From NCBI RefSeq assembly GCF_002005565.1, contig NZ_BDJC01000001.1, positions 62,001-126,000 on the forward strand: 64,000 nt of DNA, given 5' to 3'. A program made the position numbers and the translations under genes. Positions 53,525 through 56,176 of this stretch are shown one piece after another. The notes under the pieces are model-generated. The model had not been told where the DNA came from and did no database searches. It worked only from the letters and a program-made list of their open reading frames with translations. Each line of letters opens with the position of its first letter. The stretch's first letter is position 1. This DNA is from Streptomyces sp. JHA26. GTDB lineage: Bacteria; Actinomycetota; Actinomycetes; Streptomycetales; Streptomycetaceae.

Positions 53525-53660
53525 CGCACACTCCCGTGAAGCCCCCGTGGACCGGACCGTGCCGCGGTACGCGGGGAGACGGCAGGAGCGGTCGATGACA
53601 GCCATACAGCGTACGCCCGGGGTGTGACAGGGGGTTCACAGGGGGCTCGCGGGCACGACA

Positions 53661-53712
53661 CGGGGCGTTCACCCGGCCGCCGCACGTCCGCGGCGGCCGG
53701 GTGAACGCCCCG
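53661..53712 (-). terminator. 22-bp perfect hairpin downstream of the DoxX gene
   Basis: CGGGGCGTTCACCCGGCCGC continues by two bases in a 22-bp stem (53661-53682 with 53691-53712) around an 8-base loop. It lies 27 bases after the DoxX stop in the minus-strand direction. Confidence 0.8.
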
Positions 53713-53738
53713 TACGAGGTGGGCGCCGCCCGGTCGGC

Positions 53739-54191
53739 TCAGGCCGCGACGGGCGTCTGCTCCGCGGCCTGCTCCTCCGGCTCGGACGTGCGCCGGGCCA
53801 GGACGCGGTCCAGGCCGAAGGCGCCGGAACCGGTGAAGGCCAGCAGCAGGAAGGCCCAGCAGAACATGGCGGAGGCCTCGCCGCCGTTCTCCATCGGCCA
53901 CAGGGCCTCCGGCTGGTGCACCCGGAAGTAGGCGTACGCCATGGAGCCCGAGGCGATGACCGCGGCGGCGCGCGTGCCGAGGCCCAGCAGGACGAGGGTG
54001 CCGGCGACGAGCTGGATCACGGCGGCGTACCAGCCCGGCCAGGTGCCGGCCTCCAGCGTGCCGCCACTTCCCGAGGCGCCGCCGAGCACGCCGAAGAGGG
54101 AGGCGGCGCCGTGGCAGGCGAAGAGCAGACCGACGACTATGCGGAACAGGCCGAGGACGTAGGGCTGGGCACTGTCGAGGCGTCCGGACAT
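53739..54191 (-). CDS. DoxX-family membrane protein
   Basis: The protein has 150 residues with four hydrophobic segments: VLGLFRIVVGLLFACHGAASLFG near residue 15, WYAAVIQLVAGTLVLLGLG, AAVIASGSMAYAYF, and SAMFCWAFLLLAF. DoxX/SURF4-like proteins act in membrane redox homeostasis, e.g. with sulfoxide or thiol systems. An iron-box sequence lies 70 bases upstream, which suggests iron-dependent repression. Confidence 0.92.
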   Translation of the reverse strand: MSGRLDSAQPYVLGLFRIVVGLLFACHGAASLFGVLGGASGSGGTLEAGTWPGWYAAVIQLVAGTLVLLGLGTRAAAVIASGSMAYAYFRVHQPEALWPMENGGEASAMFCWAFLLLAFTGSGAFGLDRVLARRTSEPEEQAAEQTPVAA

Positions 54192-54260
54192 GTGGGGGGT
54201 GCTCCTTCGGTCGGACCGGCTCGTGGGCCGGTGGGGACGGAACCGAGTGGGCTGCCCACG

Positions 54261-54274
54261 TTAGGTGAGCCTAA
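54261..54274. promoter_or_regulatory. Iron box (DmdR1/IdeR-like operator) upstream of the DoxX gene
   Basis: TTAGGTGAGCCTAA has perfect TTAGG/CCTAA arms. Its reverse complement TTAGGCTCACCTAA matches the 14 right-hand bases of the actinomycete iron box (TTAGGTTAGGCTCACCTAA), 15 of 19 overall. It sits 70 bases before the DoxX start codon. Confidence 0.7.
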
Positions 54275-54348
54275 TCAGTACTTGCAAGTTCAACATTTGG
54301 CCATAGCCTGACGTGTGGTCACCTGCTTCTCGCCGCTCCGAGACCAGG

Positions 54349-54362
54349 TGGGAGCGCTCCCA
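54349..54362. promoter_or_regulatory. CebR-type operator (cellobiose repressor box), orphan
   Basis: TGGGAGCGCTCCCA is a perfect 14-bp palindrome identical to the published Streptomyces CebR-box consensus that represses cellulase and cellobiose-transport genes. No such gene follows: to the right is a 48-codon open frame (54362-54511) without homology that I recognise. Confidence 0.7.
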
Positions 54363-54456
54363 TGCTTGTGAAGCGATCCTTGAGCGTGACTCAATTCATA
54401 CCCCGCTCCGCCTCCACCCCAAGCCTGAAACGCGTCTCCGGCCGGAAGCGTGTCCC

Positions 54457-54540
54457 GAGCCCGGACGCGGCCACGCCGGTTCTCGAGCCCGGACGCGGCC
54501 ACGCCGGTTCCTGAGCCGGGACGCGGCTACGCCAGCTCCC
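54457..54540. repeat. 28-bp tandem repeat, three copies
   Basis: Copy 1 (54457-54484) and copy 2 (54485-54512) share GAGCCCGGACGCGGCCACGC and differ only in the last two bases. Copy 3 (54513-54540) has four changes and contains the stop codon of the PhoD-like gene. The unit is not a multiple of three. Confidence 0.8.
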
Positions 54541-56176
54541 GGTCCGTGACCGTCCGCAGGGAGGTCGCCCCGTCCCGGTCCGTCCGGGCCTGTTCCAGCC
54601 GCAGCCGCGCCGACCGCCCCCGCAGGGTCAGCGTCATGAGCTGGTTGCCGAACCAGGGCCCGCCGGTCCTGCGCCAGGAGACCGCCGGCGGCGCACAGCG
54701 CCCGTGCCGGGCGATGCGCCGCCCGAGGGCACGCGCCGGGGCGCTCCAGCCGAAGCGGAAGCCGAGCCGCATCGAGAGCGGGACCGAGTTGTGCACGGGG
54801 GAGCAGGTCAGCTGCGCGACCCGGGCGTCGGGCCCCCGGCCCGGCCAGGACGGCTCGGCCACATAGGCGTGGTGGACGTCCCCCGACAGCACGTTCACCG
54901 TCGCGGGCGCCCCCGGCCCCGTCCCGGCCTCGGCGATCAGATCGGCGAGCGCGTCGAAGGAGGCCGGGAAGGCCGGCCAGTGCTCCAGGTCCGCCCCGCG
55001 TCTGATCCGCTCCCCGAGCCGCGCCCAGCGGGCGCCCCGCTCGCCGCCGCACACCGAGGCGTTCCAGGCCTCGAGGTCGTGCACCAGGTGGGGCAGCAGC
55101 CAGGGCAGGGAGGTGCCGATGAGGAGGTGGTCGTAGGCGGCGTCCTCGTCGTCGCCCCGCCCGTCCAGCACCTGCTCGCGCAGCCAGGCGGCCTCGCCCG
55201 GGTCGAGCATCGCGCGCCGGTCCTCGGCCAGGACCCGGGCGGCGCGGGAGTCCACCATCACCAGTCGCACGCGGCCGAAGTCGCGCCGGTAGCTCCAGCG
55301 CACGGAGGCCGGGTCGGCGTCGGCCCGGGCGGCGAAGTCGCGCAGCGCGTCGGTGCCGTCGGGGGCCGCGCGGACGGCCGCGTAGAGCGGGTCGGCGGCC
55401 AGTTCGGCCGGGGAGAGGTTCCCCAGGTGCTGGTACACCCAGTACGACATCAGACCGCTCAGGATCCGCTCGCGCCACCAGTCGGTGGCCCGCATGTCGG
55501 CGACCCAGGCAGCGGAGGTGTTCCAGTCGTCGATCACGTCGTGGTCGTCGAAGACCATGCACGAGGGCACGGTGGACAGCAGCCAGCGCACCTCCGGGTC
55601 GCTCCACGACTCGTCGTAGAGCCGGGTGTACTCCGCGTAGTCCGCGACCTGGCCGCCCGGGGACTCCGCCAGGTCGCGGCGCCCGGCGATCCAGCGGCGG
55701 GTCGCGTCGGAGACCTCGTCGGCGTACACCTGGTCGCCGAGCAGCAGCAGCACGTCGGGCCGCGCGCCCCCGGGGTCGGCCGCGATGCGGGCCGCCAGGG
55801 TGTCCAGGGCGTCCGGTCCCACCGGGTCCTTGCCGCCGGCCGGCGGCGCGGCCCAGCGACAGGAGCCGAAGGCGACGCGCAGGCCCTCCTCGGCGGCGGG
55901 CGTGGCGATCACCGGGGGCGGGAAGCGGGAGTCGGGCGGCGGCCACACGCGGGCGCCGTCGAGCAGCACCTCGTACTCCGTCGCCGTCCCGGGCGTCAGG
56001 CCGGTCACCGGGACCAGGACGTAGTGGTGGCCCGCGATCTGGAACGTGCGGGCCGTGCCCTCCGCGCCGTCGGCGCAGCGCACCTCGGCGGTGCAGGGGC
56101 GGCTCGTCTCGGCCCAGACCGTCGCGGACGATCCGTCGTTGTACCTCAGCAGTGGTCCCAGGCGCAGTCCCGCCAT
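54527..56176 (-). CDS. PhoD-like alkaline phosphatase/phosphodiesterase family protein
   Basis: The protein has 549 residues. The metallophosphatase core is clear: FGSCRWAAPPAGG, LLLLGDQVYADEVSD, DDHDVIDDWNTSAAW and NVLSGDVHHAYV supply the metal ligands. The family uses Fe3+/Ca2+ and cleaves phosphodiesters. Unusually there is no Tat signal peptide, so it acts in the cytoplasm, unlike secreted PhoD. The C-terminus TVTDRELA overlaps the third copy of the tandem repeat. Confidence 0.92.
   Translation of the reverse strand: MAGLRLGPLLRYNDGSSATVWAETSRPCTAEVRCADGAEGTARTFQIAGHHYVLVPVTGLTPGTATEYEVLLDGARVWPPPDSRFPPPVIATPAAEEGLRVAFGSCRWAAPPAGGKDPVGPDALDTLAARIAADPGGARPDVLLLLGDQVYADEVSDATRRWIAGRRDLAESPGGQVADYAEYTRLYDESWSDPEVRWLLSTVPSCMVFDDHDVIDDWNTSAAWVADMRATDWWRERILSGLMSYWVYQHLGNLSPAELAADPLYAAVRAAPDGTDALRDFAARADADPASVRWSYRRDFGRVRLVMVDSRAARVLAEDRRAMLDPGEAAWLREQVLDGRGDDEDAAYDHLLIGTSLPWLLPHLVHDLEAWNASVCGGERGARWARLGERIRRGADLEHWPAFPASFDALADLIAEAGTGPGAPATVNVLSGDVHHAYVAEPSWPGRGPDARVAQLTCSPVHNSVPLSMRLGFRFGWSAPARALGRRIARHGRCAPPAVSWRRTGGPWFGNQLMTLTLRGRSARLRLEQARTDRDGATSLRTVTDRELA

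Follow-up and report, generated by a model that had tools for sequence, protein, structure and literature searches.

A predicted CebR operator upstream of a DoxX-family gene, conserved in one clade of Streptomyces

A 14-bp sequence, TGGGAGCGCTCCCA, found at positions 54349-54362 of the 64-kb stretch of Streptomyces sp. JHA26 DNA that we analyzed (hereafter the window), is probably a genuine operator of the cellulose repressor CebR, with doxX, the next gene on the minus strand, as its target, as judged from comparisons with related genomes. The sequence is a perfect palindrome that matches the CebR operator at all 14 positions, and the same 14-mer is given as a CebR site in excerpts from two publications, one dealing with the cellulases of SirexAA-E (PMC4898821) and one with Streptomyces scabiei (PMC4890002). 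A pattern scan confirmed the exact match at the position given by the first-pass annotation of this DNA and showed it to be the sole exact copy in the window. When up to three mismatches to the box were allowed, four matches were found in the window vs 7.7 expected, so that only the exact match is informative, and no second CebR box was detected near doxX at this tolerance. In the complete genome (7.34 Mb), nine exact copies are present, while the reversed control sequence is absent and the base composition predicts only 0.09-0.10 exact boxes. The exact box was found in 176 of 199 Streptomyces genomes, as compared with 2 of 199 (one copy each) for the reversed control; if one mismatch was tolerated, the reversed control was recovered as well, one to four times per genome.

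The genes lying beside the other eight boxes were called by a simple codon-bias procedure and then scanned against Pfam. Six of these boxes flank clear cellulose or cellobiose genes, the neighbors being GH5-CBM2 (box L002), GH9 (L004), GH12-CBM2 (L006), GH1 together with a LacI regulator (L007), the divergent pair GH48-CBM2 and GH6-CBM2 (L008), and an AA10 lytic polysaccharide monooxygenase (LPMO; L009). One further box (L003) may belong to a glycosidase gene, the nearest gene having no Pfam match and an NCBIfam arabinofuranosidase match far below the cut-off, and the last one (L005, C9:125389-125402) has neighbors of neither kind, being located just upstream of a gene for a GNAT acetyltransferase, with a molybdopterin oxidoreductase gene on its other side. 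An exact box was present at the L005-type locus in 10 of 17 other genomes searched (G270, G195, G118, G190, G239, G136, G307, G224, G301, and G330), and from this pattern the L005 box looks like a CebR target too. In G330, this locus is adjoined by an AA10-like gene that has a separate box. No second exact box is present on the contig of JHA26 that carries the doxX box; a further exact box was seen about 20 kb from the doxX box in G118 (C1:1695681) and G195 (C6:46107).

The genome also encodes a plausible regulator, that is, a LacI-family protein (Pfam) whose gene closes a cebEFG-bglC-cebR-like gene order, and this order is adjoined by a second CebR-like gene and a further GH1 gene. The two CebR-like LacI genes, the products of which are 64% identical, are situated on either side of a single cebEFG-like cluster (C35:42000-59000), in which the Pfam scan covered the binding protein, both regulators, and the further GH1 gene. 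We call the cluster regulator CebR-like on the basis of gene order and similarity; the NCBIfam scan of the regulators offered no CebR model and no match above its cut-off. Since the second CebR-like protein, encoded beside a GH1 gene in the same cluster, has the same helix-turn-helix stretch (VAARAGVGRGTVSRVINGSP) as the first, the main regulator of the box might be a LacI-family paralogue that shares the operator and not the canonical CebR. We regard this as rather unlikely, because among 16 genomes a 90% identical relative of the second protein was present in G195 only, whereas the best matches in G118, G136, and G190, all of which carry the doxX box, are 62-63% identical.

The assignment of the box to doxX follows from its surroundings. 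The doxX gene (53739..54191, minus strand) encodes a protein of 150 amino acids that belongs to the DoxX family (Pfam PF07681, E 1.6e-10, 41.9 bits vs a cut-off of 23.6), and the box is located 158 bp upstream of its start codon (54191). On the other side, at a distance of 165 bp, is the 3' end (54527) of a PhoD-like gene (54527..56176, Pfam DUF7800 and PhoD) that is read from the same strand as doxX. The first-pass annotation had named both neighbors correctly and had rightly stated, as the Pfam analysis showed, that neither is a cellulose gene. To the left of doxX, between it and a DedA-type gene (VTT domain), there is a long, nearly perfect hairpin (53654-53718, -63.8 kcal/mol, z -7.9), which is perhaps a terminator, though it is devoid of a T run. 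No known RNA family was recognized at 53650-54650, where all Rfam matches fall on this hairpin and score below the gathering thresholds. The stretch that separates the box from the 3' end of PhoD contains an imperfect tandem repeat with a 28-bp unit in about three copies (54453-54541), which is absent in this form from the five relatives aligned.

We then compared this locus with those of other strains. A search of 199 genomes of the genus, in which the intergenic DNA and DoxX were used as queries and the returned loci were read, revealed the exact box at the matching place upstream of doxX in G195, G118, G136, and G190, corresponding to 4 of 57 relatives' loci, 5 of the 57 being without an anchor. 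A pattern scan of a collection with named species returned 23 contigs, 22 from Streptomyces (among them S. parvulus, S. olivaceus, S. violaceorubidus, S. tendae, S. coelicoflavus, and S. mutabilis) and one titled Kitasatospora. Since this pattern demanded the 12-bp core of the box and a 13-bp promoter motif, only the spacing and the remaining bases are informative, and the distance from the promoter motif through the box core was exactly 80 bp in 22 of the 23 contigs and 81 bp in the remaining one (L113). In 21 of 23 contigs, the left-hand neighbor of the box is a doxX orthologue, the slices of the other two (L111 and L121) being too short to tell, while in three box-bearing contigs (L112, L113, and L117) the right-hand neighbor is a gene other than PhoD. 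Thus, doxX is constant and PhoD is replaceable, indicating that the box travels with doxX. PhoD was rejected as a target on these grounds and because it is its 3' end that faces the box. Taken together, position, conservation, and the carriers lacking PhoD assign the box to doxX, and the site is therefore probably not the orphan for which it had been taken. A decoy had also been proposed as one possibility, and indeed its distance from the putative doxX promoter, as well as the presence of nine exact sites sharing the repressor, would agree with CebR binding there purely by titration, with no gene being regulated. However, a titration site need not hold an exact place by one promoter, and the 80-bp spacing in 22 of 23 contigs, together with a constant 67-bp offset in all 10 sampled carriers (see below), would be left unexplained, which makes a decoy very improbable.

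The conservation of the box was assessed in a sample of 392 genomes, where a search with the corresponding region of G118 identified 23 genomes at E<=1e-20. As this query and the intergenic one both contain the box, these searches lean mildly toward carriers, though neither demanded its presence. The exact box was found in 10 of the 23 genomes, with a constant offset of 67 bp to the promoter motif, while the other 13 show 5-11 mismatches at the box position. All 14 box columns were invariant, compared with 31 of 100 flanking columns (hypergeometric 5e-7), a test that is partly circular as it was performed on the 10 box-bearing genomes. It was therefore repeated as a comparison of 14-mers with a non-carrier, G152, taken in. 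The box was identical in 10 of the 11 clade members found in this sample, a level of sharing that was matched only by the doxX promoter core and leader, whereas the other 14-mers, whether from the interval separating promoter core and box or from the right-hand flank of the latter, reached at most 5 of 11. The conserved unit is in fact slightly longer, since an 18-bp block made up of CAGG and the box (54345..54362) is identical in 10 of 10 box-bearing genomes, and the 14-mers at offsets -4 to 0 are each found in 10 of 11 members. The box is thus located upstream of doxX and kept in close relatives but not across the genus; it is limited to one clade and isolated species.

A quick single-gene tree of doxX (453 columns, 65 rows, 59 of them different), from which 2 of 67 loci (L111 and L121) were dropped, placed the carriers mainly in one clade (support 91) of 29 rows, 23 of them different, and all but one member of this clade bear the box. 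Six of the pattern-scan contigs are identical in doxX to sampled genomes, which means that the two sets overlap. Contig L115, titled Kitasatospora aureofaciens, fell inside this Streptomyces clade, pointing to either a mislabelled strain or a transfer. The single exception in the clade is G152, the sister of JHA26 (SH-aLRT 97), which possesses CebR homologues but has neither GH48 nor a single exact CebR box in its entire genome, and only one box with one mismatch vs two for its control. A working operator would be expected to vanish together with the remaining exact boxes, as it has here, although this is one case, taken from a draft genome that is 95% complete and split into 1040 contigs. Against this reading, the doxX box is kept in G307 and G224, two genomes without GH48. 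The twelve non-carriers that remain when G152 is set aside contain 3-15 exact CebR boxes at other places, and CebR regulation consequently does not require the doxX box.

The geometry of the site was examined with respect to a putative core promoter of doxX, recognized by eye and conserved in the clade (54258..54287, minus strand), which is composed of a -35 element TTGCAA (54287-54282), an 18-nt spacer, and a -10 element TAACGT (54263-54258). A scan for sigma-70 promoter and terminator consensus sequences returned nothing, this promoter included. The box lies 62-69 bp upstream of the putative -35 element, close to position -104 of the predicted promoter. Such a location is unusual for a simple repressor, and simple occlusion of this promoter is unlikely.

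The distance also lends some weight to another possibility, namely that the CebR operator drives a short transcript (a small RNA or a small protein) starting near the box and not doxX. A second, more loosely conserved block, GTGACTCAATTCATACCC (54386..54403), is found 23 bases to the right of the box, and in this window an ATG overlaps the end of the box. Only 5 of the 26 orthologous sequences, however, have the ATG, none of the frames on the two strands appears conserved, the Rfam matches in the region are confined to the weak ones on the hairpin mentioned above, and the sequence to the right of the second block varies among relatives. Most carriers show the same spacing between this block and the box, the best shared 14-mer of the block is found in 4 of 11 clade members, and the block apparently descends from the coding DNA of a lost gene (see below). 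A short transcript thus seems distinctly improbable, and the small gene that the first-pass annotation had envisaged from position 54362 was discarded, given the scarcity of the ATG and the lack of a conserved-looking frame on the plus strand.

The putative doxX promoter is overlapped by a sequence resembling an iron box, ACTGATTAGGCTCACCTAA (54261..54279, minus strand), which matches a DmdR1 site at 15 of 19 positions. Its four mismatches to TTAGGTTAGGCTCACCTAA all fall within the first five bases, as assessed by mismatch count and with no regulon score threshold applied, and it is the only place in the window with five or fewer mismatches to the iron box. Of 26 orthologous sequences, 24 come within six mismatches of one of two consensus forms, which is a plain count given without a chance level. 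Known DmdR1 sites are tabulated in PMC7174319. Judging from this resemblance, doxX is perhaps also controlled by iron via a DmdR1-like box.

The origin of the site can be partly reconstructed from relatives. In 18 of 27 loci (out of 30; the slices end inside the gene after about 500 codons), there is a long open gene upstream of doxX on the same strand, the product of which ends in NVELASID, or nearly so, directly before the stop codon. The part of this gene that was covered gave a partial match, to the end of an FAD-NAD(P)-binding model of Pfam. In 8 of the 27 loci, PhoD is present in place of the long gene and there is no box, while the remaining locus was called in another frame. In the JHA26 window, a relic of the last codons of this gene (WPNVELASTD and the stop codon) is recognizable at 54271..54303 on the minus strand, that is, at the same place as the end of the gene in relatives, and its NVELAS codons are the same DNA as the TTGCAAGTTCAAC motif. 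We considered a conserved minus-strand peptide in this frame and rejected it, since stops interrupt the frame in 23 of 26 sequences (L111, L124, and L126 have none), as expected for a relic. In the clade that carries the box, the long gene is absent and the TTGCAAGTTCAAC motif is retained, perhaps as it now serves the doxX promoter.

In loci where the gene is intact, the position of the box is occupied by TAGAACCGCTCTCG or a similar sequence, which differs from the box at 5-6 positions in five of the six loci compared and at 8 positions in the other one, and the box was absent from all intact loci that we read. The simplest order of events would be loss of the gene first, followed by substitutions in what remained of it that produced the box. 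These data also bear on the suggestion that the box was left behind by a cellulase gene since lost. The region upstream of doxX does seem to have lost a gene, of which some 3'-terminal sequence can still be recognized, and this would suit a non-functional relic; nevertheless, the intact relatives of that gene match an FAD-NAD(P)-binding model in part and do not contain the box, and no lost cellulase was seen among the relatives' loci read. Moreover, a dead site would not stay identical at 14 of 14 positions in 10 of 11 clade members while neighboring bases change, and only about 0.1 chance matches are expected per genome. A chance match or a dead cellulase relic is accordingly an extremely improbable explanation, and we retain that of an operator of doxX. 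Outside the main clade, the box is carried by L113 (SID8352) and L126 (S. poonensis), and a 13/14 version by L124 (NRRL B-24085), suggesting either repeated gain or an older origin with losses, as the single-gene tree fits both. We tentatively speculate that point mutations in the degenerating 3' end of the gene repeatedly gave rise to CebR operators at one and the same place, and that selection may thereby have wired cellulose and iron sensing to a redox membrane protein that protects cells while cellulose is attacked oxidatively (LPMO, Fenton-type); this is a possibility of clearly lower standing than the operator itself.

The exactness of the box, the regulon recognizable at six other copies, the fixed geometry, the conservation in the clade, and the absence of the box from G152 thus support the view that the box is an operator of doxX. 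According to this model, in the absence of cello-oligosaccharides CebR would sit on the box, some 100 bp ahead of the predicted transcription start, and keep doxX expression low, while cellobiose or cellotriose would release CebR, so that doxX would rise along with the cellulases and the LPMO. CebR would have to act at a distance, either by blocking an upstream promoter or an activator, or by looping, and the overlapping DmdR1-like box would add iron control. In S. scabiei, a CebR site bound in electrophoretic mobility shift assays is reported at -131 of cebE (PMC4890002), a gene for which repression by CebR and its relief by cello-oligosaccharides are likewise reported, and a distance of 158 bp to the start codon is therefore not out of range. 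By analogy with a mycobacterial complex (see below), DoxX might buffer redox stress during oxidative cellulose breakdown, which involves LPMO and iron chemistry, though this is speculation.

If this model is true, the cellulose regulon of Streptomyces extends beyond enzymes and transporters to a DoxX-family membrane protein, which would point to coordination among cellulose feeding, iron status, and redox defence. The locus would also offer a traceable example of an operator that emerged within a degenerating gene and was subsequently retained by a clade. In the open-access literature that we searched, there was no relevant paper joining CebR with DoxX, none on DoxX, Streptomyces, and cellobiose, and none joining CebR with SCO2350, a DoxX-like protein of Streptomyces coelicolor; within this literature, the link between CebR and doxX is not in print.

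The case of SCO2350 is of interest, since, according to PMC12161575, its gene has a predicted DmdR1 site, its expression is uncorrelated with that of dmdR1, and regulation by multiple factors was suggested. Like this predicted DmdR1 target, the doxX gene of the window has an iron-box-like sequence over its putative promoter, and we infer that SCO2350 is its orthologue. If so, CebR is a candidate for the missing factor and might be the second regulator of a DoxX-like predicted DmdR1 target whose expression is not accounted for by dmdR1. The likeness to the DoxX-SodA-SseA membrane oxidoreductase complex of Mycobacterium tuberculosis, described in PMC6930017, is one of domain, the DoxX domain being the only feature in common.

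With the CebR regulon as described in the available parts of the reports on S. scabiei cebE and bglC (PMC4890002) and on SirexAA-E (PMC4898821), JHA26 shares the palindrome, a CebR-like LacI protein accompanied by a cebEFG-bglC-like cluster, and boxes at cellulase and LPMO genes. It differs in that the proposed target is a DoxX-family membrane protein and not a sugar transporter or a carbohydrate-active enzyme, and in that the box is located about 100 bp upstream of the predicted transcription start, its proposed membership in the regulon resting on sequence and conservation. The closest parallel is provided by the thaxtomin genes of S. scabiei, which, according to excerpts of PMC4890002 and PMC8914351, are likewise a non-cellulose function placed under the cellulose repressor through operator sites. 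In that case, however, the sites are part of a phytotoxin cluster and have been studied experimentally, whereas here there is a single predicted site at a chromosomal gene that is common in the genus.
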